DNA of 64,000 nt from Persicaria tinctoria. Taxonomy: Eukaryota; Streptophyta; Magnoliopsida; Caryophyllales; Polygonaceae. Below are positions 25,646 through 41,414 of the stretch, piece by piece. The stretch's first letter is position 1, and each line of letters starts with the position of its first letter. The notes under the pieces were generated by a model. That model ran no database searches, was not told the origin of the DNA, and saw only the letters and a list, made by a program, of their open reading frames with translations. Location of the stretch: NCBI GenBank assembly GCA_037127255.1, contig JBANSL010000004.1:50789702-50853701 (forward strand). The letters are read 5' to 3'. The position numbers were made by a program, and so were the translations under genes.

Positions 25646-27348
25646 GTGTCTTTAAGGAATGGTAAACAGTTAGAGAAGGTAAAGAAGCATGAACCTCCTA
25701 AAGCTAAAGGGCAAGCTGCTACACTAGAGTTTGAGACTGAGGCAACAGATGAGCCTGAGAAGGAAACGATATATGTTCCCCCACCGCCATATCAACCTCC
25801 TCTTCCGTTACCACAGAAGAAGAATCAGGCTATGTTGGAGAAGAAGTTTGGGAATTTTGTAGAGATCTTGAAGAAGTTGCATATAAACATCCCATTCACC
25901 GAAGCTCTCAAGGAGGTGCCGACATATGTCAAGTTCTTGAAGAAGATCCTCTCCAATAAGAGGAAGCTTGATGAATGTCAGACAATAGTTCTTAGTAAGG
26001 AGTGCATCGCTTTGATCCAAAACAAGCTACCACCTAAGCTCGAGGATCCAAGTAGTTTCTTTGTCCCTATTAACTTTGGCAATCAGCATGATTACAACGC
26101 TCTTTGTGATTTGGGAGCTAGTGTAAGCTTGCTTCCTCTATCAATTTGCAATAAGCTTGATTTAGGAGAGCTTAGGCCAGTGAGGATGCAACTATTTATG
26201 GCGAATAGGTACATTGCCCACCCAGCTGGTATTTTAGAGGATATCCCTATTAAAGTGAGAAATTTTTTTGTGTCAGTAGACTTTGTAGTGTTGGATATGG
26301 ATGCTAATATGTTTGTCCCTATTATTCTTGGAAGGCCTTTCTTGAACACTACAGGTACTGTGATTGATGTAAGAAAAGGGACTCTCTCCTTCGACATTGA
26401 AGATGAGAAAATAGAATTTAACCTTATTAAAGTTATGAAAACCCCTTCTTTTGAGAATGATTATTTCAAGGAAGATGTGATGGAAAGGACAAACAAGGAG
26501 CAAATGATGTCTATTGTCATTAGGGACCCCTTGGAGCTTTTCTTGACTACTAGTGTGATGACGAGGGGAGAATGTCCACCACTTGCTAAAGTTGTTGCTG
26601 ATTTAGAGTTGTCACTGGAAGCTCCTACCTTCCCTAAGTCCAGGGTCGAACTTCTAACCACGGATGATGTTCCTGAAGTGCCTAAGCTAGACATGAAGCC
26701 ACTCCCATCTTCTTTGAGGTATGAATTCCTTGGACCCAACTCTATATGGCATGTGATTGTGAATGCTAATTTGAGTGATGATCAAGTTGAGAAGCTTTTA
26801 ATTGTCATTCGAAATCATAAAAAGGCCATAGGGTATTCAACAGATGATTTGAAAGGGATTTCACCTTCTTTGTACATGCATCGTATTTTCATGGAAGATG
26901 ATCATAAACCCACCATAGAATACCAAATGAGACTTAACCCAAACATGAAAGAGGTAGTTAAAAAAAAGTCATGAAATTGTTAGATGCATGGATTATTTTT
27001 CCTATTTCCGATAGTAAGGGGGTAAGTTCGGTTCACGTTGTGCCTAAGAAGGGTGGGTTAACGATTGTAAGAAATTAAAATAATGACATAATTCCCAATA
27101 GAACGGTCACCGGGTGGAGAATGTGCATAGACTATAGAAAGTTGAACACCGCCACTAGGAAAGACCACTTCCCTCTTCCATTTATTGATGATCAAATGCT
27201 AGAAAGGTTGGCTAAGCATTCATACTTTTTCTATCTAGATGGGTATTGTGGGTTTTGGTAAATTCCTATTCATCCCGATGATCAGCAAAAGACTACATTC
27301 ACTTGCACGTATGCACCCTTTGCATACAGAAGGATGCCTTTTGGCTTG
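25646..27348 (+). pseudogene. Element G protease and RT N-terminal half
   Basis: The first frame (25646-26974) has a polyproline linker, IPFTEALKEVPTYVKFLKK, the protease motif ALCDLGASVSLLPLSICNKL, FVVLDMDANMFVPIILGRPF, then the RT lead (YEFLGPNSIWHVIVNANLSD). After a frameshift at 26961 the RT continues with VMKLLDA, SDSKGVSSVHVVPKKGG, WRMCIDYRKLN, HFPLPFIDDQMLERLA, PIHPDDQQKTTFTC and RRMPFGL. A Gln codon in the GFWQI block is TAA. The RT is split at MPFGL by element H and resumes at 41415. Confidence 0.85.
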
Positions 27349-28224
27349 TGATGAAACCGGACTTGAAAAGCGCACACATATCCCCCCACGTGACCGTGGA
27401 GGGATAAGCATGCAGAATCCTTTCCACTTGGGATGGGTGTCGCGGGCTTACCTGACGCCCTCGCAACCCCGGCCTGACACCCGATGTGGATGACAGAGCC
27501 GGGGCTACGAGAACCCCAACCTGTGCCGCGCACTCCAAAGGATCATGCGTATGGACTTACCCTCCCCCGCGATCCTCATCAGTCGTGAGGATTTCGAGGT
27601 TGGTGCCGCGGAGCCCTACGAGGAGGCTCGCGTCGTTAACTGAACGGGTTCATCGAGTGACCCAATGGCGAAGAGGACATGACCGCCGACTCAGTGAGAG
27701 TTGACGAAGGACCGGTTTACGTTTTCCCCCTAGCTCTCCTATCGCACGCCCTACTACCTGCGCAGCTTTGGTCGCCGTTAGCTAAGTGCTACAGGCGTCC
27801 GCGGATGTGACGGTTCTCCACCGAATGGAGATGGTCTAGGTGTGGAGATTTCTCTGACGTAATTCCTTCCTTCCTTCTCTCTCTACTCAAGACGTCAGTC
27901 CTCTCCTTTCTCTCTCTTCCAAAAAAGTCCTTTCTCTCCCCCTTTTATACTGTGTTCTGTCTCGTTTGAACAGGGGGACGTTCCCCTCTTTTGGCCATTT
28001 GTCGGCGTCATGAGGCCAAGTGTTGGGGGTCGTGAGGACACTTGGTCAGGCGGCATGTTCGACACCTGTCCCTTTTCTCGCCACCTGTCGCTCTGAACGT
28101 GGACACTCTTTGTTCGCGGACGGGAGACCTTTACGGTTTTTGACCTTGGGGTTTATTACCTTTTTGCCCCCCTCTGCGCTCTTACGCGGCTTTCCGGGCC
28201 CCTTTTATCTCTTGGGCGTCATCA
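27349..28224 (-). repeat. 3' LTR of element H
   Basis: It starts (minus) TGATGACGCCC at 28224 and ends GGTTTCATCA at 27349. A TATA box GTATAAAAGG is the complement of 27941-27950. Two CACCTG motifs lie at 28063-28068 and 28082-28087. About 99% identical to 40527-41414. Confidence 0.9.
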
Positions 28225-28426
28225 CAGCTCCTCGGACCGCGGGGGATCCGGTTAGGATCCTTCGAGGTTCGAAGAACACCTACCGCTGGGGGTAGTTGTT
28301 CCCAAGGCGACGAGATAAACACGGGTAAAACCCTTGGGCTTTGGAGTGGAGGGGCCCATTTTGAGTTTTGCTGGGCCGATGTGGGTTGCGGCCCATTACT
28401 TCTGATTGATGGGGGTCCGTTTTCCT

Positions 28427-28483
28427 GACACGTGTCTTGAGGTGAGGAGGCGAAACGTCGTGGATTGTAGTGCCTATAAATAG
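28427..28483 (+). promoter_or_regulatory. Promoter of the antisense ORF of element H
   Basis: A perfect palindromic G-box GACACGTGTC (28427-28436) is followed 37 bases later by a TATA box CTATAAATAG (28474-28483). The antisense ORF starts at 28752, about 240 bases beyond the expected RNA start. The direction is opposite to the LTR promoter. G-boxes bind bZIP and bHLH factors in plants. The call rests on motif quality and spacing only. Confidence 0.6.
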
Positions 28484-28751
28484 GAGCCCTGACCCCCTCT
28501 CATTTTTACCGTCCCCGTTTTTTACCGTTCTCTCGACCAAGACGTCTTTGAGGTAAACTTTGACCCTTTACTTCTTTCTTTCCGCGACTTTAGCTTTGGT
28601 TTCCTTGATCCTAGTTCCCTTGTAACTTCTTGGGCTCCGGTCGTTGTGCGGGCCTTCCCTTGTGTTGGTGTTGGCCGCGGTTGATCCTTAGGTATCTTTC
28701 TAGACCCTTCTCCCCGTCATTCCTTTCCTTGTTGGTCCTGCTGCCTCTACT

Positions 28752-30233
28752 ATGTCGTCCCCTTCGAGTAGTTCGAGGAGCATGCAAACTTTGACCGATC
28801 CCCCACCCCCCAGCCGCCCTGGAGGAAAGCTGCGGATGGGTGACATCGAGGTGCCTGAGGACGTTACCTTTAGGCAGCCTAAAGATCTTGAGGATCCCTC
28901 TTTCTATGCTTCCCCGGGTCGCGAAGTGGAGGGGGATTCTTCCCCAATCGAATCCTCTTCTTCGCGGTCGACCGGCGGAGGTTCACCATCAGACTCGGAC
29001 TCGATACTGGAATCACCAGAATCCCAGCACTCTTATAAGGAGTGGGATTCTCACACCGGCTTGCCTTCTGGCCCTGTCTTCATGGCAAAGGAGCGGCGTT
29101 CGTCATCCGTATTAGGAGACTTCTGGCCGGTGTTGTACAACGAGAAGGTGTTAGAGACCTGTCTTTTTAGAGGGGATTTTAAACCTTCTGTCGCGGGCCC
29201 GATACCGGTGATCTCCTCTCAGCGTGTGATCCCCATCGCTCCCCCAAATGCTCAGAGCCGCGGAGGGGGAACCTTCACCACGGTGGAAGACCTGGACGTG
29301 ATTGCCCGCGTTTTCCCTTGGCCTGAGGGGGTTGTGTTGTGTTTACCGGCCGAGGGGGGAGCAAGTTTAGACGCTTACCCGGGCTGCTTAATGGTATACA
29401 TCGAGAGTTTGGTGCAAGGATTCCGTCTTCCTTTGCCTAGTTTGTTTAAACGCTATCTAAAAGCCTGTGGTTTGAGCCCTGCTCAGCTGGTGCCAAACAG
29501 TTGGCTTTTCCTGACTTCATTCGTGATGCGCTGTCTGGAAATCGGGGTTCAACCCTCTCTCGGGCTATTGAACCAAATGCTCACTCTGGGTCATGGGGTA
29601 ATGTTCAAAAGCCTTTATCAGGCCAAGCTTAGCGTTCCCATTGTGGATCGGAATACTAGTAAACCGGAATGGCGACACAAGTGGTTCTTGGTTAGGGATC
29701 CTTCGCGCAAGATTTTGAATTTCCACACCGAGCCCCGTCTGTATGTGAGGCCAGAGAGGAAGACGTACCCGGGCCTCAAGGAGATAGAGCAAAGATTCGT
29801 CGTGGAGACGAAACCGTCCTGGAAAGATATGGTTTCTCCCCTTCAGCTAGAAATGGCGGGATTGAGTCTTCCTCACCCTCGCATAGGTTGTAGCTCCAAT
29901 TCAGAGATTGCCTTAGCCTCTCGTTTGTGTGGTGACGGTTTGTTATGTCGTTTCTCTGATCCTTTTTTCTTCGATTTTGCGTGGTGTTGTGTAGGTGCGG
30001 TGGAGTTGAAATCTATGGTGGACGCGGCTAAAATGTCCTCGGCCCCTCCGTCAAAAAGGAAGATCCCGTCCGATGTTCTGAGTGCTTTGAAACGTCCCAA
30101 GACTTCTACCTCCCAGGCCAAAGGGAAAGCGGCTGTGAAAGAGACGACTATCGTCGCGGCTTCCCTCCCCTCGGGATGTCCCCGCGGAAACAAATCCCTC
30201 GATCATACTAATCGACTCCCCTCCTGCTGTTGA
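28752..30233 (+). CDS. Antisense ORF of Tat element (gypsy-type transposon domain), 493 aa
   Basis: The protein has a Ser/Pro-rich, acidic N-terminus (about 1-110), then a globular part. At about 207-280 it reads YPGCLMVYIESLVQGFRLPL, then LKACGLSPAQLVPNSWLFL, the pattern of the Pfam family called putative gypsy-type transposon (PF04195, Transposase_28). A Lys-rich nuclear-signal-like stretch (PSKRKIPSDVLSALKRPK) lies near 435. Tat elements are known to carry such an ORF on the strand opposite pol, between integrase and the 3' LTR; its function is unknown. It is preceded by its own TATA and G-box. Near 30195 the frame appears to slip, because a neighbouring frame continues with similar composition. 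Confidence 0.7.
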   Translation: MSSPSSSSRSMQTLTDPPPPSRPGGKLRMGDIEVPEDVTFRQPKDLEDPSFYASPGREVEGDSSPIESSSSRSTGGGSPSDSDSILESPESQHSYKEWDSHTGLPSGPVFMAKERRSSSVLGDFWPVLYNEKVLETCLFRGDFKPSVAGPIPVISSQRVIPIAPPNAQSRGGGTFTTVEDLDVIARVFPWPEGVVLCLPAEGGASLDAYPGCLMVYIESLVQGFRLPLPSLFKRYLKACGLSPAQLVPNSWLFLTSFVMRCLEIGVQPSLGLLNQMLTLGHGVMFKSLYQAKLSVPIVDRNTSKPEWRHKWFLVRDPSRKILNFHTEPRLYVRPERKTYPGLKEIEQRFVVETKPSWKDMVSPLQLEMAGLSLPHPRIGCSSNSEIALASRLCGDGLLCRFSDPFFFDFAWCCVGAVELKSMVDAAKMSSAPPSKRKIPSDVLSALKRPKTSTSQAKGKAAVKETTIVAASLPSGCPRGNKSLDHTNRLPSCC

Positions 30234-30733
30234 TGTCCAGCCTCTTCCTCTGGCCCTTCCGGCGAAGCGTCAGGTCACGTCCCCTGGTGATGCAGGTCCT
30301 TCCAAATCTAGGTCGAAGAAAAGGAAGACGCGATTGTATCCGCCTTGGGAAGGCGTGAATTGGGATGTGCCGGTTTTCCATGTTGATGCCAACGGCCGAC
30401 CCGCGTATCGGATGCCCGGCTTCCATTCCGACACTCTTGAGAGACTGGCCTTTCCTCCGGAGCTGGGGAAAGCGGAACTTCGTTACTTAGATCATTTGAC
30501 TGACGAGGAATTCACGCTTGAGCAGGAACGATGGTGCAACTGGGTAAGTGAGTGGTGTTTTGTTTTTGTTTGTTCCATCTTTATGTGTGCCTCGTATTCT
30601 CAGCGAGTTATGCGTTTTATTTTTCACGGATAGGGTCACGTCTTCACCCACAGCGGCTGGGGCCGATATCTTCGCTTGGGCCAACATGCCGAGGAACTGG
30701 AAAAGAAACTGGAGCAGGTGGAGGAGAAACTCT
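30196..30733 (+). pseudogene. Continuation of the antisense ORF after frameshift, with splice-like donor
   Basis: From about 30196 a shifted frame reads ILIDSPPAVDVQPLPLALPA, a basic run KSRSKKRKTRL, then YPPWEGVNWDVPVFHVDANG and acidic text to EQERWCNW at 30542. GGGTAAGTGAG at 30541 is a strong 5' splice site. After a T-rich stretch ending ACGGATAG (30634), the next frame reads GHVFTHSGWGRYLRLGQHAE and then ELEKKLEQVEEKLS, a short coiled coil ending near 30733. So this is probably the C-terminal part of the same protein. Confidence 0.45.
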
Positions 30734-30769
30734 CAGGGCCGATATCTTCGCTTGGGCCAACATGCCGAG
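30660..30769 (+). repeat. 34-bp direct repeat in tail of antisense ORF
   Basis: Identical 34-base copies lie at 30660-30693 and 30736-30769 (core CCGATATCTTCGCTTGGGCC). The second copy is followed by GTAAGTGAGTGGTGTTTTT, the same sequence as the splice-like donor at 30543. This looks like a small templated duplication. Confidence 0.75.
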
Positions 30770-31058
30770 TAAGTGAGTGGTGTTTTTGGGATGTTGTTTC
30801 TTTTGGGACGATGGGGATCCAAACTTCGCGACGGGAAGTGATGGAAAGAAAAGACTTGATCCGCGGTTGTTTTTTGGGGATGGTCCTTGCCTCTGGTTCC
30901 GCGGATGGGCCAAGCGAGGGAAAACAAATTTGCGACTTTTGTTACTAATGGTTTTCTTTTGACGCGCAGTTGTCTGATTGATTCATTGCATAATTCTAGT
31001 TATTACAAGTTCTCTACTTGTCCGGTTACCTTGCTGCCTAGCTCGGAGTACCCTCTTC
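30770..31058 (+). other. Spacer in element H
   Basis: T-rich, intron-like DNA with no supported coding frame. A possible 3' splice site, TTTTGACGCGCAG, ends at about 30969. Confidence 0.3.
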
Positions 31059-31367
31059 TTAGGGGGAATCATCGCTATCCTCGCCCTCCGGGGTGCTTTC
31101 TCCCGAGGGTATGTAAGTCGCCTTGAAGCGCGAGTCGCCCAAGTATTTGAAGACCACAGCCCCTCCCACATGCACATTTCGGTATCGGGTGAATGCTCTC
31201 CATCCTTGGGTAAGCCAGAGCACCCCAGCGTCGTCCCTTTCTATTGATACGCGCGTGCCTCTCCTCCCCAGTCCGTTAGTTAAGATAATTCTTTCAACGC
31301 CAAACAACCCGAACTCTTCTTCGAAAGACGCCGGTAAAGGCTGGGGCGGTTCAAAGGAGACGATCAA
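31059..31367 (-). CDS. B3-domain protein 1 of element H (pol strand), about 102 aa
   Basis: The protein reads PPQPLPASFEEEFGLFG, then ERIILTNGLG, VSIERDDAGVLWLTQGWRAF, VHVGGAVVFKYLGDSRFKAT and an acidic tail. This is the plant B3 DNA-binding pattern: LP.xF start, central (V/L)xLTQGWxxF, then a GxxxxFxYxGxSxFxV block. The first Met is at a TTG or nearby codon, and an in-frame TAG lies 13 codons upstream. The other frame just upstream holds KHFYYFLTID, a good B3 first strand, so a one-base frameshift near 31355 probably separates the two. It lies downstream of integrase on the same strand. B3 domains bind DNA in the major groove. The role here is unknown. Confidence 0.65.
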   Translation of the reverse strand: MIVSFEPPQPLPASFEEEFGLFGVERIILTNGLGRRGTRVSIERDDAGVLWLTQGWRAFTRYRNVHVGGAVVFKYLGDSRFKATYIPSGESTPEGEDSDDSP

Positions 31368-31379
31368 TCGTAAGAAAAT

Positions 31380-32154
31380 AATAGAAGTGCTTAACTAAAG
31401 GATTTCTCAGGAGAGTATTATCATTCTTTGCAAGAAGGAGGCATTCTGGACCAAACGGATGAAATCTCTCCGGCGGCCTCCACCTGATGCCATGTCTTTT
31501 CCGGGGCTTTTTTAGGTGATCTTCCTGTCCGATGGGTGAATGTTTCTTTACCGGGCTATCAGATCCCATGCTTTTATAGAGGAGTGATGAACCTTGATCT
31601 CTACTGTAGGAGATCTTTAATATTTAATGCTTCCGATATTCGAGTATCTTTTCTGAACCGTCTCTTCCCCATGTTTCTAGGGAAGGAAACTCGGCCAGTA
31701 AAAGCAAAGGCAGCTTTATTGGTTCTCGAATCAAAGAAAATAGAAAAAGGAAAAACTTTTACTTGTTTCTTATGCGCCTCGGTATCCGTGGACTTGCTTT
31801 CTCGAGTGTTCGGTACCCTGGCGTCTCTGGTGGCTCATGGTCAGGGCTTTTCGAGCGACCACGGAAACCTCGTATAGGAGAACTCATACGAGATGGGTGA
31901 TTCATGGGGCGTCGGCTGGCCGCCCGTGGGTATGCTTGATGATTTGTGAATCGTGAAAACTCTTTGGCCGCTTCTATGTGCGCGACTGTGTTTTTATGAA
32001 TTATCTCCCTTTCTGGGACGCTTGATCCTTTTATTATTTAGGGAAAAGTAGCCGGGAACTGATATTCCCCACAGCCAGCTTCGTTACGTCTGGCATATTA
32101 AAAACTGTAAGGGATACAAATTACAGAAATGATGGAACCAAGGATGGCTTGCCC
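31380..32154. other. Spacer between B3 ORFs 1 and 2
   Basis: A + strand open stretch at 31536-31877 (113 codons, ending in Ser/Val-rich text) and other short frames lack recognisable domains. I see no feature to name. Confidence 0.3.
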
Positions 32155-32472
32155 TCATGCTTCTTCGCTGTCGGGATTGATGATGTCCACTTCAAAGATG
32201 GAATCCCCCCTGTAGGCGAAGATCAAAGCGGACCCGACTGTTACTCGGTTTGCCTGAACAAAGTGGTGCCAACCCTGGGTTAGCCAGAAAAGGCCGTTGC
32301 TATCCCTTTCAACCTTCACCTCGTGTTCCTGGTTGGAGCGAGACCAAAGACGGGCTTGCGATTCTGTGTCCTCGTCTATCAAGACATACACAAGTGGGAG
32401 GCGGAGTATCTGGAGTTGTTCTTCCCTCATGATGACGCGACAGAAAACCTTGGGGGGCATCTCTGGGTTCAT
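32155..32472 (-). CDS. B3-domain protein 2 of element H (pol strand), 105 aa
   Basis: It is intact from ATG at 32472 to the stop. It begins MPPKVFCRVIMREEQLQILR and LP, the usual first strand and loop of a B3 domain, then EVKVERDSNGLFWLTQGW, HHFVQANRVTVGSALIFAYR and GDSIFEVDI. The whole protein is essentially one B3 domain with a short acidic end (NPDSEEA). ERDxxGxxWLTQGW is shared with protein 1, so the two are paralogues. It is on the same strand as gag-pol and downstream of the 71-bp array in element orientation. No transcription signal of its own was found. Confidence 0.75.
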   Translation of the reverse strand: MNPEMPPKVFCRVIMREEQLQILRLPLVYVLIDEDTESQARLWSRSNQEHEVKVERDSNGLFWLTQGWHHFVQANRVTVGSALIFAYRGDSIFEVDIINPDSEEA

Positions 32473-32820
32473 CGTCGTTGTTGGAGGGCGTTGGATCCCT
32501 CAATTCGTCGGGCCTATCCTTGGTTTGGTCGCCCCTGGGGAGAAGAACCACGTTCACGGGTCTCCTTTCTTCCCCTCTGTCATTTCCTTTTGGTGGCGCA
32601 GGCTGTGATTAGCATGCGCTGTCCTCTCTGACGTACATCTGTCCGCCATGCTCAGCCTGGGGCAGTGATGCCTTGACTACCCTCGGTTTCCGCCCTGGTT
32701 TCTTCTTCAGTTTTTTAATTTATCGAGGGGGCGCCTATGCAGCCCGTGACCTTTGATGGTTCCCTTTAAAGGTCGAGGGCTGCTCGGCCTCTTTATTCCG
32801 TAAAGGAGACCCGCCATACG

Positions 32821-33333
32821 ATGTCATCTTCAACCCCCACTACATGGGCCTTCTTTCGTTCTCTGGATTTCCCGGAACAGATGTATCACCTCGTATGTTG
32901 TTGTAGTGATTTTAGCCGTTTCGCTTTCTTCCTTTGCTAATTAGTCTTTCCTTGTCTATCTGGGGTGTCTGGGCAGCGGCTGCCTGCCCGCTTTGAGCTC
33001 AAGTATGGCCCCGATCTTCCTGAGTGCGTCCTGCTATCGTCGAGGATTCTACGGGAGTTCCCTGTGACGGTGTACAGAGGTGACTACCGGGTGCTCTACT
33101 TGGGGCAGGGCTGGAATCATTTTGCCAGCACCCATGGCGTCGACATAGGATCCGTCATCACCTTCCTGCACAAAGGGGACGCTCGGTTCCAGGTTTATAT
33201 CTTGTCTGCGAATGGTAGTGAAGTCGACGCGGAATGGCGAGAGCCTCATCCTGAGGGTCCTCTTCCCAACGGAACCCGCCTGTGTGCGGACCGAACCCGC
33301 CTGGTTTCGGGTCATCCTCGGGATACTCCTTGA
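32821..33333 (+). CDS. B3-domain protein 3 of element H (antisense strand), 142 aa, one intron
   Basis: Exon 1 is 32821-32892 (MSSSTPTTWAFFRSLDFPEQ and MYHL). The intron is 32893-32976 (GTATGTTG ... TCTGGGCAG, 84 nt, phase 0). Exon 2 is 32977-33333. The join gives FFRSLDFPEQMYHL followed by RLPARFELKYG, which is exactly the spacing of a B3 first strand and LP.xF loop. Exon 2 continues with VTVYRGDYRVLYLGQGWNHF, HGVDIGSVITFLHKGDARFQ and VYIL. It faces opposite to proteins 1 and 2 and in the direction of the antisense ORF. The intron call rests on consensus ends and the restored domain. Without splicing, exon 2 alone lacks the first strand. Confidence 0.7.
32893..32976 (+). other. Predicted intron in B3 ORF 3
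   Basis: GTATGT donor, T-rich body and CAG acceptor, 84 nt, phase 0. It has in-frame stops, so splicing is needed for a full B3 domain. Confidence 0.6.
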
Positions 33334-33568
33334 GTAGTCTGCGCGTTCCTTTTGAGTTACCTCTTCTCTTTTGCTGGTCTTAGTTTCTTCGGGCATTTTC
33401 TGCGTTTCCTGTTTTTTCCTTGGAGGGATATCCCTCTTTGAATGTTAAACGCCCAGTTTCTTGGGAGGAGATTTTGGCTCCGGATTTAACGATCACTTTT
33501 CTGGCATGCCCTATACTGGAGTATTAATAGATTAACGACGTACCCGGACGCCCGTCCACCGGACGTTC
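33334..33568. other. Spacer before tandem array
   Basis: No coding frame is supported. The last 28 bases (33541-33568) are a decayed start of the 71-bp repeat. Confidence 0.4.
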
Positions 33569-34793
33569 GACGTGGAGCAAGCTCCAGCATCCTGGGACGC
33601 AGTTCCAATCTGGGAGCTCAATGCATCCACCAGAGACCCGACGCGGAGCAAGCTCCAGCGTCTCGGGGCGAGGTGTCGATCTGGGAGCTCAACGCGTCCA
33701 CCAGAGATCTGACGCGGAGCAAGCTCCAGCGTCCCGGGACGAAGTGTCGATCTAGGAGCTCAACGCGTCCACCAGAGATCCGACGCGGAGCAAGCTCCAG
33801 CGTCTCGGGGCGAGGTGTCGATCTGGGAGCTCAACGCGTGCACCAGAGATCTGACGCGGAGCAAGCTCTAGCGTCTCGGGACGAAGTGTCGATCTGGGAG
33901 CTCAATGCGTCCACCAGAGACCCGACGCGGAGCAAGCTCCAGCGTCTCGGGGCGAGGTGTCGATCTGGGAGCTCAACGCGTCCACCAGAGATCTGACGCG
34001 GAGCAAGCTCCAGCGTCTCGGGACGAAGTGTCGATCTGGGAGCTCAATGCGTCCACCAGAGACCCGACGCGGAGCAAGCTCCAGCGTCTCGGGGCGAGGT
34101 GTCGATCTCGGAGCTCAACGCGTCCACCAGAGATCTGACGCGGAGCAAGCTCCAGCGTCTCGGGACAAAGTGTCGATCTGGGAGCTTAATGCGTCCACCA
34201 GAGACATGACGCGGAGCAAGCTCCAGCGTTTTGGGACGAAGTGTCGATCTGGGAGCTCAACGCGTCCACCAGAGATCCGACGCGGAGCAAGCTCCAGCGT
34301 TTTGAGACGAAGTGTCGATCTGGGAGCTCAACGCGTCCACCAGAGATCCGACGCGGAGCAAGCTCCAGCGTCTCGGGGCGAGGTGTCAATCTGGGAGCTC
34401 AACGCGTCCACCAGAGATCTGACGCAGAGCAAGCTCCAGCGTCTCGGGACGAAGTGTCGATCTGGGAGCTCAATGCGTCCACCAGAGACCCGACGCGGAG
34501 CAAGCTCCAGCGTCTCGGGGCGAGGTGTCGATCTGGGAGCTCAACGCGTCCACCAGAGATCTGACGCGGAGCAAGCTCCAGCGTCTCGGGACGAAGTGTC
34601 GATCTGGGAGCTTAATGCGTCCACCAGAGACATGATGCGGAGCAAGCTCCAGCGTTTTGGGACGAAGTATCGATCTGGGAGCTCAACGCGTCCACCAGAG
34701 ATCCGACGCGGAGCAAGCTCCAGCGTTTTGGGACGAAGTGTCGATCTGGGAGCTCAACGCGTCCACGAGAGACCCGACGCGGAGCAAGCTCCC
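33569..34793 (+). repeat. Tandem repeat array: 17 units of exactly 71 bp plus a partial unit
   Basis: GACGCGGAGCAAGCT (first unit GACGTGG) recurs at 33569, 33640, 33711, 33782 and so on to 34776, so 17 units fit without any indel. Units mostly alternate between two versions (GGGGCGAGGTG and GGGACGAAGTG), a 142-bp higher-order pattern. A six-unit block (426 bp) is repeated: TTAATGCGTCCACCAGAGAC occurs at about 34184 and 34610. It lies between integrase and the B3 ORFs in element H. Tat elements often carry such arrays in this region. Confidence 0.95.
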
Positions 34794-34901
34794 GTGTCTT
34801 TATAAATCTTTTCAAAGAAGGTCTAAAGCACCCACTAACCGCCTTGATTTATTTACGAGTGGCGGGGGTGACTGGAATAAACGTCAGAGCAAACTCGGAA
34901 A

Positions 34902-35726
34902 TTACACGTAGTACTTCTTTAGGTGTTCGGCGTTCCACGTCTTTCGAAGGATAACACCCTCAGGGGTCTGCAACTTGTATGCTCCGACCTGAACACGCTC
35001 GGCGATGATATAGGGCCCTTCCCACTTGGCATCCAGCTTTCCTCCAGCTAGGGCCAGACGCAGGACTAGATCTCCCTTCTCGAAGCGTCGCTCTTGTAAA
35101 TGCTGGTCCCTGTGTTTCTGGGTCCTCCTTTTGTATTCTTGGGCATGGATCTCGGCGGTCATGCGTTTCTGCTCCCGAAGGTGCATCTCGACCTCCAGAG
35201 CCTCATCGTTAGCCTTGGACTCGTAAGCTATGACCCGGGCAGAGGGAATCAGGTGCTCCACTGGGATGACCGCGTCTGACCCAAATACCAGAGAAAAAGG
35301 TGATTCCTTAGTTGGGGTCTTTGGTGAGGTGAAGTACGACCAGAGTACCAAGGGGAGAAGTTCCGCCCACCGGCCCTTGGAGGTTTTCCCCAGCTTCTTC
35401 TTGATACCCTCCAAGATTTGGCGGTTTGTAGTCTCCGCCTGCCCATTCGTCTGGGGATGAGCTACTGATGAGAATTTTAGTTTTATTCCGAGGCCTTCAC
35501 AAAAGTCTCGAATGCTCTCGCAATCAAATTGCGTCCCATGGTCGGTGATGATGGCTTCGGGGACCCCGAACCGGCAAACCAGATTCTTCCACAGGAAATT
35601 CCTGACTTTCTCTGCGGTAATCAAGCCCATTGCCTCCGCTTCTACCCACTTGGTAAAGTAGTCCACTAGGACTAGGACATATTTGAGCTGTCTGGGTGCT
35701 GTGGGAAAGGGGCCCACGATGTCCAT
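34902..35726 (-). CDS. Element H integrase catalytic core and C-terminus
   Basis: It continues in frame with the pol ORF after one TAG. The core has the DDE triad: MDIVGPFP (D2), ITDHGTQF, and HPQTNGQAETTNRQ. The GPY/F-like C-terminal part reads FEKGDLVLR, LDAKWEGPYIIAERVQVGAY and ends HLKKYYV. All catalytic residues are kept. Integrase inserts the cDNA into the chromosome. The only lesion is the TAG at 35730-35732 in place of the usual Trp (FALWGMDIVG expected). Confidence 0.9.
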   Translation of the reverse strand: MDIVGPFPTAPRQLKYVLVLVDYFTKWVEAEAMGLITAEKVRNFLWKNLVCRFGVPEAIITDHGTQFDCESIRDFCEGLGIKLKFSSVAHPQTNGQAETTNRQILEGIKKKLGKTSKGRWAELLPLVLWSYFTSPKTPTKESPFSLVFGSDAVIPVEHLIPSARVIAYESKANDEALEVEMHLREQKRMTAEIHAQEYKRRTQKHRDQHLQERRFEKGDLVLRLALAGGKLDAKWEGPYIIAERVQVGAYKLQTPEGVILRKTWNAEHLKKYYV

Positions 35727-35729
35727 TCC

Positions 35730-37958
35730 CTACAATGCGAAAGGGCAAGCTCCGAAGATGCTTTGAAGCGGCTCGGCGGGTACATTTTTCAAGTTCCCAT
35801 GTTTTTGGCAAGCCTCACAACTGCGCACGAAACTCTGCACGTCCGTCCTGATCGTGGGCCAATAGTATCCCAACCTTAGTACCTTGGTAGACAAAGCCCT
35901 CCAGCCTTGGTGGTGAGCGCAAACCCCGGCGTGTAGCTCCTCGGCGATGGTTTGTCCCTCCCGGCTGGACACACACAGCAAGTCCGGGAAATTGAAACCT
36001 TTCTTATACAACTTCCCTCCGCGGATTAGAAATCGGGCCGCTCTGCCCGTTAACTTCTTGGCTTCCGCTCTCTCCTGTGGGAGAGTCCCCTTTTCCAGGT
36101 ATTTAGTGATCGGTGTTCTCCAGTCTTCGGGCCCCTCTGTCTGGACAAAATACACTTCTTGTACCAGCCTTCGCTGGTTCCTTTTTTCGAACTCAAACTT
36201 TCCTTCTGCGTTTGCCGGCATTGCAGCCCCCACTCGGGCCAATAAATCTGCCTGCTCGTTGTCTTCCCTCGGGATGGACTCGAGGGTGAAATGTAAGAAA
36301 GCCTTCCTTAGAGCATTCACTTTTCGCAGGTAATCTGGCAGCAACCCTGTCTTGGCTTCATACTCTCCGTCCACCTGCTTAGCGACAACCTCTGAATCCG
36401 TGTACACGGTGACAGCCCGAGCCCCTCGGGCCAGAGCTAATTCTAGCCCCGCTATCAGGGCCTCATATTCGGCTTCGTTGTTTGTGGTTGGGAAGTTCAG
36501 CTGATGAGAGAAACAAAGCCGATCTCCCCCGGGGTTGGTGAGCACGACCCCCGCTCCACATCCATCCGAGTTGACGGCTCCGTCCACTTTTACCAGCCAA
36601 AACTTCTGTGAGTCTTGCTCCTCCTCAAAACTGGTTTCGGCGATGAAATCAGCTAGTACCTGGGCCAACGCCGCTCTTCGGGGGACGTACGCTATCTCGA
36701 ACTCAGAGAGCTCGATGGACCACTTTGACATTCGTCCGGAGAAATCGGGTGAGTGAAGGATCTGCCTCAATGGTAAATCTGTTAAGACCTCGATCCTGTG
36801 ATCCTGGAAGTAAGGACGTAGCCTTCTTGCCGCGAATATCAGACAAAGAACTACTTTCTCGACTGGCTCATACCGGGTCTCAGCGTCTTGGAGTACTCTA
36901 CTCACATAGTAAACCGGGTACCGCCCTTCCCTGGCGAGAACTGCGCTGATGGTAGTTGTTTTGACCGCGAGGTAAATCTGCAGGTCTTCCGCTTTTTGCG
37001 GCTGCTGGAGAGTGGGCAGGTACTGCAAAAAGACCTTCAATTCATCGAATGCTTGTTGAAGCTCCGTTGTCCACTGTATCGGCCCCTTCTTCTTTAGCAA
37101 AGCGAAGAAAGGCAAAGCCTTGTCTGCTAAGCAGGAGCAGAAACGTCCTAGGTAGTTAACCGCCCCGTTCAACGAATGGACCTCCTTGATGGTCCGTGGA
37201 GGACGTAATTCCTGGATTGCCGTTATCTTTGCCGGGTTTACATCTATGCCCCGCTGGCTAACCATAAAGCCTAGAAATTTTCCGGACTCAACTCCAAACA
37301 CACACTTTTCGGCGTTCAAATTTAGCCCTCCTCGTCTCAGCGAATCGAAGGTTTCTTGCAGATCTGCGGCATGGTCTTCTGCTTTCTGGCTCCTTACAAC
37401 AATGTCGTCCACATAAATGGACACGTTCCGGGACAGCTGTTCGCGGAAGATCTTGTCCACTGTCCTCTGGAATGTCGCTCCAGCGTTCCTCAGACCGAAG
37501 GGCATGACCTTGTAGCGGAAAATCCCCTGATTGGTAATGAAGGTGGTTGCCCTTTGGTCCAAAGGGTCTAGTTTGATCTGGTTGTACCCAGAGTAGGCGT
37601 CTAGGAAACTCAGAGCCTCGTTCCCGGCAGTGATATCTACCAAATCGTCGATCGACGGCAATGGGTAGCTGTCCTTCGGGCAAGCCTTGTTCAGATCTGA
37701 AAAGTCGACACACATCCTCCACTTCCCGTTGGCCTTCTTAACGAGGACCACATTCGAGAGCCATTCTGAGTCCTCTGCCTCCTCAATAAAGCCAGCATCG
37801 AGCAACTTATCCACCTCCTCTTTCGCTGCCCGAGCCTTTTCCGGGGCCATCTTTCTTTTCTTCTGGGCCACAGGCCGCGCATCGTGACAAATTCTGAGTG
37901 TTTGAATTGCGATGGAAGTGGGGACGCCTAGCAGGTCCCTCGGGGACCACGCGAACAC
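35730..37958 (-). CDS. Element H RT, RNase H, archaeal-type RNase H and integrase zinc finger
   Basis: There are 742 codons. RT has GKWRMCVDFSDLNKACPKD (79-97), VMPFGLRNAGATFQ (151-164) and the catalytic IYVDDIVV (181-188). The first RNase H (about 325-440) has lost its first acidic residue (YLAVKTTT), as is common in Tat elements. The second RNase H keeps D459 (KVDGA), E495 (NNEAEYEAL), D521 (YTDSEVV) and D571 (NEQADLLAR). The HHCC finger (LHAGVCAHHQGW ... CEACQKHGN) leads into integrase. The same frame is open upstream to the protease, broken by TGA TAG at about 37968-37973. Its role is cDNA synthesis and integration. Confidence 0.95.
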   Translation of the reverse strand: MFAWSPRDLLGVPTSIAIQTLRICHDARPVAQKKRKMAPEKARAAKEEVDKLLDAGFIEEAEDSEWLSNVVLVKKANGKWRMCVDFSDLNKACPKDSYPLPSIDDLVDITAGNEALSFLDAYSGYNQIKLDPLDQRATTFITNQGIFRYKVMPFGLRNAGATFQRTVDKIFREQLSRNVSIYVDDIVVRSQKAEDHAADLQETFDSLRRGGLNLNAEKCVFGVESGKFLGFMVSQRGIDVNPAKITAIQELRPPRTIKEVHSLNGAVNYLGRFCSCLADKALPFFALLKKKGPIQWTTELQQAFDELKVFLQYLPTLQQPQKAEDLQIYLAVKTTTISAVLAREGRYPVYYVSRVLQDAETRYEPVEKVVLCLIFAARRLRPYFQDHRIEVLTDLPLRQILHSPDFSGRMSKWSIELSEFEIAYVPRRAALAQVLADFIAETSFEEEQDSQKFWLVKVDGAVNSDGCGAGVVLTNPGGDRLCFSHQLNFPTTNNEAEYEALIAGLELALARGARAVTVYTDSEVVAKQVDGEYEAKTGLLPDYLRKVNALRKAFLHFTLESIPREDNEQADLLARVGAAMPANAEGKFEFEKRNQRRLVQEVYFVQTEGPEDWRTPITKYLEKGTLPQERAEAKKLTGRAARFLIRGGKLYKKGFNFPDLLCVSSREGQTIAEELHAGVCAHHQGWRALSTKVLRLGYYWPTIRTDVQSFVRSCEACQKHGNLKNVPAEPLQSIFGACPFAL

Positions 37959-37970
37959 GTCCCTCGACTA

Positions 37971-38741
37971 TCAGATGATCTCCAGGACCCTTTCCCTCTC
38001 CCTCGCTCCGAGGGCTTGGCCCATATAGATTCTTTCCTCGGGATTAAGGAATGGTTGATGAACGGTCCTTGAATCCGCGGTTGGGACCTCTCTTTCGGAG
38101 GGCCGAACCTCGAGCTCAGCTTCCGATCCGCCCTCGTTGGTTATTCTTGCTGTTTCATCCCCGGGTGAAGAGTCTTTCTGGGTGATCGTGGTGCTGCTCT
38201 GAGCCATATCTTCGAGACACATGACCTCCTTCTTTTTCTTCAGCGACGTGACGTAACAACTCCGACTTTCTGGCTGGTGACCGCACACTTCCCCAGTTCC
38301 ACCCCCGGAGACCGGGAATTTGGCTTTAAAATGGTATATGGACACCACCATCTGAAATTTAAAAAGGGAGACCCTTCCCAGGAGCGCGTTGTAGGTGGTC
38401 GGAATCCGGACCACCGTGAAGGTGATGTTCTCCATTCTCCGTAGAGGGGGGGGGGTGGCTAACACCACTGTTAGCTCAATGGTGCCTGCCACCTGTACTT
38501 CATCTCCTGAAAAAGTAACCAAGGTGCCGTGGTAAGGCTTCAAGGCGGTCGCCGACACACCTAACTGGGAGAAGGCCTCCCACGAGAGTATGTCAACTGA
38601 CGATCCTGTATCGATGAAAACCCTCTTTACAGTTTTGGTTGCGATCTGGGCGTGGATCACCAAGGGATCGGCGTGAGGCATGCGGACGTGCTCCGCGTCG
38701 GCCGAGGTAAAAACTACTTCCGGGTGTGGCCTCGAAGCCAT
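37971..38741 (-). CDS. Element H protease
   Basis: The active site is VFIDTGSSVDIL at about residues 41-52, intact. Further motifs are GTIELTVVL and TTYNALLGRVSLFK. It is in frame with gag (TAG between) and with pol (TGA TAG between). Its role is maturation of Gag-Pol. The C-terminal 100 residues are acidic linker with LNPEERIYMGQALGARERER next to the RT. Confidence 0.9.
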   Translation of the reverse strand: MASRPHPEVVFTSADAEHVRMPHADPLVIHAQIATKTVKRVFIDTGSSVDILSWEAFSQLGVSATALKPYHGTLVTFSGDEVQVAGTIELTVVLATPPPLRRMENITFTVVRIPTTYNALLGRVSLFKFQMVVSIYHFKAKFPVSGGGTGEVCGHQPESRSCYVTSLKKKKEVMCLEDMAQSSTTITQKDSSPGDETARITNEGGSEAELEVRPSEREVPTADSRTVHQPFLNPEERIYMGQALGARERERVLEII

Positions 38742-38744
38742 TTT

Positions 38745-40322
38745 CTAACTTGCCAGGGACGGAGGATGTCTCGACTCTCTCTCATAATTCTTCCTCTCTT
38801 GCCGGCTAACTCCTGAGATCGAGGGTCCCCCTGCAAGGGTGTCGATAAAGCCTTCTGGTTCAGGAATCCGGTTGGTTCGTGACCCTTCCGGGCGGTCCTC
38901 TCGGCGTGGAGCCTGATTAACCGATACTTGCGCGGGCTGGCCCCGCCCCCTGCGACCTTCTCTCCACCAACTCCCCCTGCCTCGGCCCCGGTTCCCCGGA
39001 AGGTACCGCCGTGGTTCGTCCCTCCCCCGAGGATCCTCCATTTGAGTGGCATGGGGGTGGTGGCTTCTTCGGTCCTCCGCGAACCCTCGATCCTGGTGAT
39101 CCCGGACCTGCCGGTAGTGACGAGGATCGTCGTCGCGCTCATTTCTTCTGGCCGGAGACACTGGCCCCCTATGCTTGTGCACCTCTTGGTCAGCGCCCTG
39201 ATATCTTGCGTTTGGTTTACCTTTCTCATGGTTGTAATGAACCTCATCTTGTCGGGACGCGGGCGTTCCGCCCGCGGAGTAGTTTCTCTTTGGTTTCATA
39301 GCTCCTTTGTCTTTCCGGAACCTTCCCGCGATCTTCCCAAGAAGGCCGCGCGAACCCTCATTGGCCCTAGAACTAGAGGCTGCAGCTTCTTCTGCCTCAA
39401 TCTGGGCGGACACCAGGTTTCTTAGCGTATCATAGTCCTTGGGCTTCTTTCTGAAAAGCCGGGTCTTGAAACTTCCGTCCGCGATGTTCCCCATCAAGAT
39501 TATGACCGCGGATTCGTGGTTAAAGTTGGGGATCTGGACTACCACAGACGTGAAGCGGGCGAAGAATTGTCCCAGGGTCTCATTGTGCCCCTGCCTGATC
39601 GGGTTGAGGTCTAACATGGTCTTCTTTCTAGACCGCGAGCTTCCAAAATGAGACTTGAAAATCTGGGAGAGTTGGAAAAAACTCGAGACCGAGTTCTGCG
39701 GCAAATTGGTGAACCACGTTAGTGCGATGCCGGTCAGTGTGAACGGGAAAGTCCGGCACAGCATTGCGTCATTGTACTCATTGACCCCCATGACTGTTGT
39801 AAAATGGCACATGTGGTCATCGGGATCCGTGGTGCCATCATACTTCATTAGATTTGCAGCCCTCCACCGCCTGGGTACTGGCGCCAAACAAACCTCGTTT
39901 GTGAACACTGAGGGGATGAGGTCTACCCTTCTCCCACTCTCTCGGGGCGAACCAGTTCGGGTGGATGTGGATATATCAGATGAATGTTCCCCCCTGTGCT
40001 GCTTGAAAGGGCGTCTGCCCTCGCCACGATACTGCGAACCGAAGTCGTCGGTAGTTCTGGGCTGAAACTGATCCTGGTACATGCCCCCGTGCGCCTCGTG
40101 GTGGAAGAATGGGAACGGATTCACCGGCGGAGGCGGGGCATACCCATCATATCCATAGAAGATACCCGGCCCCATGCCCTGGTGAGGGACATAGTGATTC
40201 CTGGGCGTAAAGTAGCCTTGGGCCATCTCGGGTGGGACATACGGCGATACAACCGGATCCTCCGGGGCGCTGAGCTGTCCTGGGGAGTTTACTGGTCCCC
40301 CGGTCCCCTGCGGCCCTTTCAT
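38745..40322 (-). CDS. Element H gag, 525 aa
   Basis: A Pro/Gly/Tyr-rich N-terminus is followed by the Retrotrans_gag core at about 158-300 (YDGTTDPDDHMCHFTTVMGV, TGIALTWFTNLP, FKSHFGSSRSRKKTMLDLNP, LGQFFARFTSVVVQI). A basic, Arg/Gly-rich tail follows. No CCHC knuckle is visible, in line with many Tat elements. The true start may be upstream at 40371 in a neighbouring frame (MSENQGEASPEMMSQ), which would imply a one-base shift near 40320. Its role is to form the capsid. Confidence 0.9.
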   Translation of the reverse strand: MKGPQGTGGPVNSPGQLSAPEDPVVSPYVPPEMAQGYFTPRNHYVPHQGMGPGIFYGYDGYAPPPPVNPFPFFHHEAHGGMYQDQFQPRTTDDFGSQYRGEGRRPFKQHRGEHSSDISTSTRTGSPRESGRRVDLIPSVFTNEVCLAPVPRRWRAANLMKYDGTTDPDDHMCHFTTVMGVNEYNDAMLCRTFPFTLTGIALTWFTNLPQNSVSSFFQLSQIFKSHFGSSRSRKKTMLDLNPIRQGHNETLGQFFARFTSVVVQIPNFNHESAVIILMGNIADGSFKTRLFRKKPKDYDTLRNLVSAQIEAEEAAASSSRANEGSRGLLGKIAGRFRKDKGAMKPKRNYSAGGTPASRQDEVHYNHEKGKPNARYQGADQEVHKHRGPVSPARRNERDDDPRHYRQVRDHQDRGFAEDRRSHHPHATQMEDPRGRDEPRRYLPGNRGRGRGSWWREGRRGRGQPAQVSVNQAPRREDRPEGSRTNRIPEPEGFIDTLAGGPSISGVSRQERKNYERESRHPPSLAS

Positions 40323-40507
40323 GATCCTGGCTCATCATTTCGGGAGAAGCTTCCCCCTGATTTTCGCTCATTTTCCGACCTGCGCAAGCAAGGGAGTGTT
40401 AGCTTAGAGTAATGTTGGGAATAGCACCTCAATGCTTCTTTTTTCTTTCTTCCCCCCCCTTTTTTTTTAAAAAAGAAAAAACTCGGGAACCTCTCAGGGT
40501 GAGAGTG
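40323..40507 (-). other. Element H leader between PBS and gag
   Basis: Short untranslated leader with an A-rich and G-rich run (40443-40490 on the + strand reads C-rich then T-rich, then AAAAAAG). It contains a CTTGCGCAG acceptor-like site. No other feature is seen. Confidence 0.5.
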
Positions 40508-40525
40508 TTCCCACAGACGGCGCCA
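40508..40525 (-). other. Element H primer binding site
   Basis: The complement reads TGGCGCCGTCTGTGGGAA, one base from the LTR end. It is a PBS type common in Tat elements and different from that of the Athila elements in this window. I have not assigned the tRNA. Confidence 0.85.
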
Positions 40526-40526
40526 G

Positions 40527-41414
40527 TGATGAAACCGGACTTGAAAAGCGCACACGTATCCCCCCACGTGACCGTGGAGGGATAAGCATGCAGAATCCTT
40601 TCCACTTGGGATGGGTGTCGCGGGCTTACCTGACGCCCTCGCAACCCCGGCCTGACACCCGATGTGGATGACAGAGCCGGGGCTACGAGAACCCCAACCT
40701 GTGCCGTGCACTCCAAAGGATCATACGTACGGACTTACCCTCCCCCGCGATCCTCATCAGTCGTGAGGATTTCGAGGTTGGTGCCGCGGAGCCCTACGAG
40801 GAGGCTCGCGTCGTTAACTGAACGGGTTCATCGAGTGACCCAATGGCGAAGAGGACATGACCGACGACTCAGTGAGAGTTGACGAATGACCGGTTTACGT
40901 TTTTCCCCCTAGCTCTCCTATCGCACGCCCTACTACCTGCGCAGCTTTGGTCGCCGTTAGCTAAGTGCTACAGGCGTCCGCGGATGTGACGGTTCTCCAC
41001 CGAATGGAGATGGTCTAGGTGTGGAGATTTCCCTGACGTAATTCCTTCCTTCCTTCTCTCTCTACTCAAGACGTCAGTCCTCTCCTTTCTCTCTCTTCCA
41101 AAAAAGTCCTTTTTCTCTCCTTTTTCTCCCCCTTTTATACTGTGTTCTGTCTCGTTTGAACAGGGGGACGTTCCCCTCTTTTGGCCATTTGTCGGCGTCA
41201 TGAGGCCAAGTGTTGGGGGTCGTGAGGACTCTTGGTCAGGCGGCATGTTCGACACCTGTCCCTTTTCTCGCCACCTGTCGCTCTGAACGTGGACACTCTT
41301 TGTTCGCGGACGGGAGACCTTTACGGTTTTTGACCTTGGGGTTTATTACCTTTTTGCCCCCCTCGGCGCTCTTACGCGGCTTTCCGGGCCCCTTTTATCT
41401 CTTGGGCGTCATCA
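40527..41414 (-). repeat. 5' LTR of element H
   Basis: 888 bp, TGATGACG start at 41414, ending next to the PBS. The TATA GTATAAAAGG is the complement of 41132-41141 and should drive gag-pol RNA. CACCTG motifs lie at 41253-41258 and 41272-41277. It differs from the 3' LTR by about nine substitutions and a short T/C-rich expansion before TATA. Confidence 0.92.

Follow-up and report, generated by a model that had tools for sequence, protein, structure and literature searches.

An LTR retrotransposon of the Retand/Tat type in Persicaria tinctoria carries, between its integrase and its 3' LTR, a cluster of small B3 domain genes that is under purifying selection and lies beside a tandem array of a 23-bp dyad. 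That these are B3 genes, and that the element captured them, we regard as nearly certain. Taken as a whole, the best explanation is that the captured and multiplied B3 genes encode proteins that would bind the element's own dyad array and thereby mark the element copies, a reading to which we assign a probability of roughly 45%.

Architecture of the element and its B3 genes

The element occupies the minus strand from about 27348 to 41414 of the window, the 64,000-nucleotide stretch of DNA analysed here. Its features are as follows.

27348..28224, minus: 3' LTR, 97.6% identical to 40526-41414
28752..30233, plus: antisense PF04195 (Transposase_28/TRP28) ORF; E 9.5e-8, 32.6 bits, cut-off 26.2
31059..31340, minus: B3a exon 2 with stop, remainder of the B3 domain; PF02362 1.2e-5, below cut-off; Ka/Ks 0.133
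31422..31493, minus: B3a exon 1, 24 codons, start of the domain; ATG in 17/17 aligned copies, GT donor in 16/17, AG acceptor in 17/17
31571..31579, minus: TATA-like CTATAAAAG, candidate internal promoter about 85 bases 5' of the B3a ATG; sequence match only
32155..32472, minus: B3b, complete intronless B3 domain, sense to pol; PF02362 1.9e-9; Ka/Ks 0.110
32821..32892, plus: B3c exon 1, antisense to pol; ATG in 28/29 aligned copies, GT donor in 27/29, AG acceptor in 29/29
32977..33333, plus: B3c exon 2 with stop; PF02362 1.1e-8; Ka/Ks 0.153
33568..34798, no strand: 71-bp tandem array, 18 copies (0-2 mismatches) of GACGCGGAGC-AA-GCTCCAGCGTC
34902..35726, minus: integrase part of pol; PF00665 5.6e-13; one stop splits it off the upstream frame
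35730..37967, minus: reverse transcriptase, RNase H, second RNase H and integrase zinc finger; PF00078, PF17917, PF13456, PF17921
37974..40331, minus: gag and protease frames; PF03732 4.8e-14; PF13975 0.0098, under its cut-off
40526..41414, minus: 5' LTR, pairs with 27348-28224

Read along the minus strand, the order is gag, protease, reverse transcriptase, RNase H, second RNase H, integrase and the 71-bp array, followed by B3c (plus), B3b (minus), B3a (minus), the antisense PF04195 ORF (plus) and the 3' LTR. The LTRs are 97.6% identical across 889 columns, 12 of which are gaps, with about nine substitutions, so that the description of the element as young in the sequence-only reading was a fair one. 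Directly read from the sequence, the element is flanked by GCTTG and GCTTA, which reads as a target duplication with one difference. The DNA around it is, judging by a reverse transcriptase motif, what we take to be the reverse transcriptase gene of a second retrotransposon, and the element is thus nested inside another one.

Domain content and layout assign the element to the Retand/Tat type. The second RNase H of the reverse transcriptase frame (PF17917 at 325-420, PF13456 at 458-575) corresponds to the aRH described as a Tat feature (PMC6317226). An antisense PF04195 ORF between pol and 3' LTR, typical of Retand elements (PMC11963269) and recorded as Transposase_28 in 23% of the Retand elements of another study (PMC6317226), is present both in the window element and in a distant member of the family (L055), which was chosen among loci already known to hold integrase and B3b. 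With described Retand (TatVI) Ty3/gypsy elements the window element further shares the tandem array next to pol, and its LTR and internal lengths fall inside the reported ranges (PMC11963269; PMC6317226); the region between pol and 3' LTR, at about 6.7 kb with the array at 33568-34798, is slightly above the 2.9-6.6 kb of the survey (PMC11963269). The earlier placement of the B3 ORFs inside a Tat element, between integrase and 3' LTR, was therefore correct. What distinguishes the element from described Retand elements is its B3 cluster, with three to four genes distributed over the two strands. The window element is not an intact copy, because a single stop breaks pol between the frame ending at 35730 and the frame starting at 35726 (reverse transcriptase and integrase, respectively) and because the B3a splice donor is degraded. 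Long open frames across the integrase are present in other copies of the same genome.

Three B3 ORFs, two on the pol strand and one opposed, had been proposed from the sequence, and a search with the Pfam B3 model (PF02362, curated cut-off 30.1 bits) bore this out for two of them, namely B3b (32155-32472, minus; E 1.9e-9, 37.8 bits) and B3c (32965-33333, plus; E 1.1e-8, 35.4 bits). The B3a ORF (31059-31367, minus), scored without exon 1, stayed below the cut-off (E 1.2e-5, 25.6 bits). In a six-protein comparison it aligns to B3b and B3c (32-42% identity, E 1e-12 to 1e-14), and since exon 1 moreover restores the start of the domain, we consider B3a a true B3 domain. In L055, B3b scores above the cut-off (37.0 bits) and B3c below it (24.6 bits). 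The best of five structure models of B3b reached a pLDDT of 75.6, the other four 50-60. In a fold search with this best model At1g16640 (1yel, TM 0.77-0.79) and VRN1 (4i1k) ranked first; the best PDB matches are B3 domains, and B3b is thus predicted to have the B3 fold. A sequence search of the PDB returned At1g16640 as the sole match, a weak one (E 0.026). VRN1 binds DNA with little sequence specificity, a point that weighs against the binding of a defined site proposed below.

The stretch from 32821 to 33333, previously taken as a single ORF, turned out to be interrupted: the ATG at 32821 opens exon 1 (32821-32892), which is followed by an 84-base intron. The introns of B3a and B3c measure 80-87 bases, and their length is not a multiple of three in 9 of the 17 B3a and 10 of the 29 B3c copies. 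Introns diverge about twice as much as the first exons, both in B3a (0.166 versus 0.069) and in B3c (0.224 versus 0.117). The one B3a copy among the 17 that deviates at the GT donor is that of the window. Taken together with the conserved start codons and splice sites, this predicts that B3a and B3c are two-exon, spliced genes. As B3c is antisense, its intron would escape splicing of the genomic RNA. The position of the B3a intron on the sense strand suggests internal transcripts of its own or unspliced genomic RNA. Between the divergent B3b and B3c, conserved blocks are found at 32500-32820 of the window, a stretch that could be a two-way promoter.

Selection and distribution in the genome

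Purifying selection acts on the protein sequence of the B3 genes, sense and antisense alike. For this analysis, pairs were formed among the 30 loci with the best B3b matches, dropping matches of less than 85% coverage and pairs with Ks <=0.02 or undefined. The median Ka/Ks was 0.133 for B3a (16 of the 17 copies found, 117 pairs), 0.110 for B3b (30/30, 429 pairs) and 0.153 for B3c (25/29, 299 pairs), with two, three and four stop-bearing copies in the respective sets. The choice of loci by B3b similarity biases the figure for B3b and leaves those for B3a and B3c unaffected; the latter two are raised because the spans used take in a few intron-coded codons. Variable sites at codon positions 1, 2 and 3 numbered 17, 18 and 53 in B3a, 28, 21 and 78 in B3b, and 37, 28 and 86 in B3c; the same three-phase count in the non-coding DNA between B3b and B3c (25 loci) gave 21, 21 and 21. 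Ka/Ks and the excess at third positions rule out chance ORFs.

Synonymous sites are saturated when the window element is compared with L055, so that Ka is given here and not a Ka/Ks ratio: 0.184 for the integrase, 0.167 for B3b, 0.370 for B3c and 0.592 for the TRP28 ORF. Over this distance B3b is constrained about as strongly as the integrase, and B3c and the TRP28 ORF are less conserved than it. The corresponding identities are 75% (integrase), 74% (B3b), 57% (B3c) and 42% (TRP28 ORF), and the order in L055 is integrase, a 78-bp array, B3c, a second B3c-like domain (42%), B3b, a third B3c-like domain (39%) and the TRP28 ORF.

The sequence-only reading had named as the case against it that B3 ORFs be absent from related elements and part of a later insertion. 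This was looked at within the same genome, which measures 1.68 Gb. The best 150 of 6,566 candidate places were scored for B3b (down to 73% identity) and the best 150 of 6,267 for B3c, the window included in both. For the integrase, 141 matches of 22,043 candidates were scored, and B3 genes were sought downstream within 12 kb in the right orientation. Among the B3 matches listed, B3b and/or B3c follows at least 94 of the 141 integrase matches (B3b at least 68, B3c at least 80), and controls for the wrong place (upstream or wrong strand) gave 0, 1, 0 and 0. The B3 set belongs to the element family, since its order and orientation recur across it; a later unrelated insertion is thereby excluded. 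For 47 of the 141 integrase matches no B3 gene is found among the matches listed (best 150 for B3b and for B3c), which may reflect real absences or an effect of using the best 150.

The composition of the cluster varies. The 30 loci with the best B3b matches were all cut at a distance of about 1.5 kb from B3b; within these limits B3c is present in 29, B3a in 17 and a further B3 gene, B3d, in 12. B3d is 35-55% identical to B3b, open in ten loci and interrupted by a stop in two. In 11 loci it sits at the distance where B3a is usually located; B3a and B3d coexist in one locus (L050), and two loci have neither. Tandem arrays that include element B3 genes were also observed, with B3b occurring at least four times near 62.79 Mb of contig C3 and B3c at least three times near 48.22 Mb of contig C11, both at steps of about 1.2 kb.

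Origin from host REM genes

The origin of the element B3 genes from a host REM-type gene is supported by sequence (the weak match at E 0.026), fold, tree and intron position. The tree comprised 20 element domains, P0001 (a relative from an ENA contig, see below) and 17 domains from eight other loci, 16 of them taken as host genes and one from a MULE-like repeat; two sampled host clusters are presumed to be REM genes on the basis of general knowledge and fold neighbours. It splits the element domains and P0001 from all others with a support of 93.4/95, and the nearest non-element domains are four domains of one REM type. As trimming left 85 columns of alignment and the sampling covered two REM clusters, we treat the tree as moderate evidence. 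A comparison with host REM proteins, as had been proposed, thus places the element B3 genes nearest to REM domains, and the two also share an intron position. The introns of B3a and B3c lie immediately 5' of an R/P-L-P motif in phase 0, where B3b is intronless. In three of seven inspected host REM exons (L024, the type nearest to the element B3 genes) a donor follows the matching exon 1 at the same place. A fourth donor, at L024_6139, is that of an exon lying 923 bases further upstream, and the donor search gave none for the remaining three exons.

Of the earlier suggestion that the element captured a B3 gene once or more, the capture holds and repeated capture fits less well: the tree groups the element B3 genes together, and one capture followed by duplication appears to fit best. 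Accordingly worded as a model, a host REM-type B3 gene would have entered the element between pol and the antisense TRP28 ORF, most probably in a single event and in unspliced form as DNA. It would then have multiplied into the cluster of three or four small genes, each with a single B3 domain, that occupies both strands. The resulting genes share fold and intron position with host REM B3 genes such as At1g16640 and VRN1, but differ from them as single small domains inside a retrotransposon, with one antisense to pol, and in forming a clade of their own.

The genome holds a second B3 capture, by another kind of element. A repeat represented by L009-L022 contains an 85-aa B3 exon (e.g. L011:4906-5160) common to 13 of the 14 loci; where tested it is MULE-like, with a MULE domain in L016, and its B3 groups with a host REM domain (support 84/97). 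These dispersed 85-aa matches were excluded as copies of the element B3 genes, as they belong to the MULE-like repeat and have no DNA match to the element.

All relatives obtained from protein searches are ENA contigs of 614-798 bases (P0001, P0002 and P0003). P0001 and P0003 encode relatives of B3b with 76% and 85% identity, respectively, and P0001 is by eye nearly identical to the B3b of L055. With B3c alone as protein query no relative beyond this genome was found, and none of the four pattern matches from a scan of IMG/VR is a relative.

The dyad array and the proposed function of the B3 proteins

Between the integrase and the B3 genes lies the tandem array, the repeat unit of which holds, in its conserved part, the imperfect 23-bp dyad GACGCGGAGC-AA-GCTCCAGCGTC. 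With up to two mismatches the dyad occurs 18 times in the window, always within the array, and not at all in 100 shuffles. It is absent from the LTRs of the window element, and as it is confined to the array, direct control of the LTR promoter by the dyad is not indicated. In the genome, the dyad pattern with a central gap of 0-2 bases has 25,333 exact matches as compared to none for the reversed control. Some of these matches fall in a subtelomeric satellite; this satellite, near a contig end (L056, contig C1:33000-36500), has a 1637-bp unit with degenerate 76-bp repeats related to the element array and one intact dyad per unit.

Consensus units of the array were obtained from 27 of the 30 loci (three gave none). 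They differ by a mean pairwise 4.2% in a 54-column part and by 30.5% in an 18-column spacer, a contrast that is descriptive because the bounds of the spacer were set after viewing the alignment. In L055 the dyad is kept with one extra central base and much of the remaining unit differs. These figures bear on the view that the array is recombination-driven satellite DNA, its even core reflecting homogenisation and not function. Arrays of Retand elements are indeed said to vary and to have no known function (PMC11963269), and the subtelomeric satellite of the same genome contains related repeats; but homogenisation should level the spacer as well, and the dyad survives in L055 in an otherwise much altered unit. 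We consider this view quite unlikely.

Alternatively, the array might act as RNA, the dyad forming a hairpin in the genomic RNA that serves packaging, export or stability and is unrelated to the B3 proteins. The dyad, as can be read directly, is able to pair in RNA and sits in the 3' part of the genomic RNA. Among 155 units within five substitutions of the dyad, representing 56 distinct forms (none from L046, L053 or L055), 35 changes result in a G-U pair on the sense strand and 37 on the antisense strand, 21 break a pair and none is compensatory. As G-U pairs are not preferred on the sense strand, the dyad is read as a DNA site; with sense and antisense counts alike, the hairpin is not favoured, and a role as RNA seems very unlikely. 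As the dyad is nearly invariant next to a divergent spacer, we read the array as a putative DNA-binding array, which may instead serve TRP28 or another protein.

TRP28 in particular could bind the array, with the B3 proteins regulating something else, e.g. the promoters of the cluster itself. TRP28 is predicted to be DNA-binding, and one survey found it in 97% of its Retand clusters (PMC11963269). However, the arrays are family-specific and TRP28 is general (PMC11963269), and between the window and L055 the TRP28 ORF has diverged far more than B3b by Ka, yet the dyad has been kept. An assignment of the array to TRP28 is in our view unlikely. Equally improbable, as we see it, is an action of the B3 proteins on host DNA, either by steering the integration complex or by disturbing host REM regulators, with the array serving another purpose. 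The derivation of the domain from a host regulator family and the selection on the genes would agree with such an action. Against it stand the conserved array of candidate sites in the element itself, adjoining the B3 genes, and the fact that these are separate genes with no fusion to the integrase.

Because the conserved dyad array adjoins the genes, binding to the element's own DNA is likelier than the control of RNA or the finding of targets that had been suggested from the sequence. In the mechanism that we favour, the B3 genes would have their own internal transcripts, and the proteins translated from these would move into the nucleus and bind the adjoining tandem dyads, probably as dimers or in groups. 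Binding would mark the element's own copies and either counter silencing or raise internal transcription, as VANC does for VANDAL elements. Judged from the sequence features, we hold the chances that the B3 proteins bind the dyad array to be even; anti-silencing or activation as the outcome of binding, which is suggested by analogy, is a more tentative proposal. VANC proteins bind a short motif that is tandemly repeated within the VANDAL elements encoding them, and they lift silencing (PMC5735166). Both systems have a tandem array of a short motif in a non-coding part of an element that encodes a protein of a DNA-binding family. VANDAL, however, is a DNA transposon, its VANC proteins are not described there as B3 proteins, and binding and anti-silencing were demonstrated for it but would be conjectural here (PMC5735166).

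Antisense TRP28 ORFs and tandem arrays are already on record for Retand elements; among the open-licence papers covered, the B3 gene set with its array is new. A 2025 survey scored ORFs of at least 600 bp (shorter for TRP28) and reports no known domain in the sense ORFs of the region, and the term 'B3 domain' is absent from its main text (PMC11963269). The term likewise has no occurrence in the accessible text of PMC6317226 and PMC13317346, and that of PMC7264820 does not name B3. Among the titles listed from the open-licence literature on B3 and retrotransposons, none points to a comparable gene set. The earlier statement that no description is known thus stands for the gene set but not for the domain as such: a B3 domain is listed, in one sentence and a mention in the discussion, for LTR retrotransposon consensuses of Aegilops tauschii (PMC9289625). 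These elements share a B3 domain inside an LTR element, but the accessible report, on one genome and with a five-consensus filter, gives no gene structure, number, strand, selection or array (PMC9289625). Similarly, the AlkB m6A demethylase captured by Gypsy elements of Phalaenopsis is a host-derived domain that became fixed in one lineage of plant Gypsy elements; it is an RNA-modifying enzyme, in contrast to the protein of a DNA-binding family found here (PMC9289625).

What the extra ORFs and arrays in the interval from pol to 3' LTR do has been called unknown (PMC7264820, PMC11963269). In the elements presented here the additional ORFs encode members of a known DNA-binding family, are strongly selected and lie beside a defined 23-bp candidate site, so that the question of array function reduces to a plain binding assay. 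The intron kept in a sense-strand gene, implying internal transcripts or unspliced genomic RNA, has a meaning that can be tested with long reads. By analogy, and as a possibility that we put forward with reserve, a host transcription factor gene may have become a paralogous DNA-binding cluster which, with a co-evolving dyad array, would serve self-recognition and anti-silencing as a B3 counterpart of VANC.
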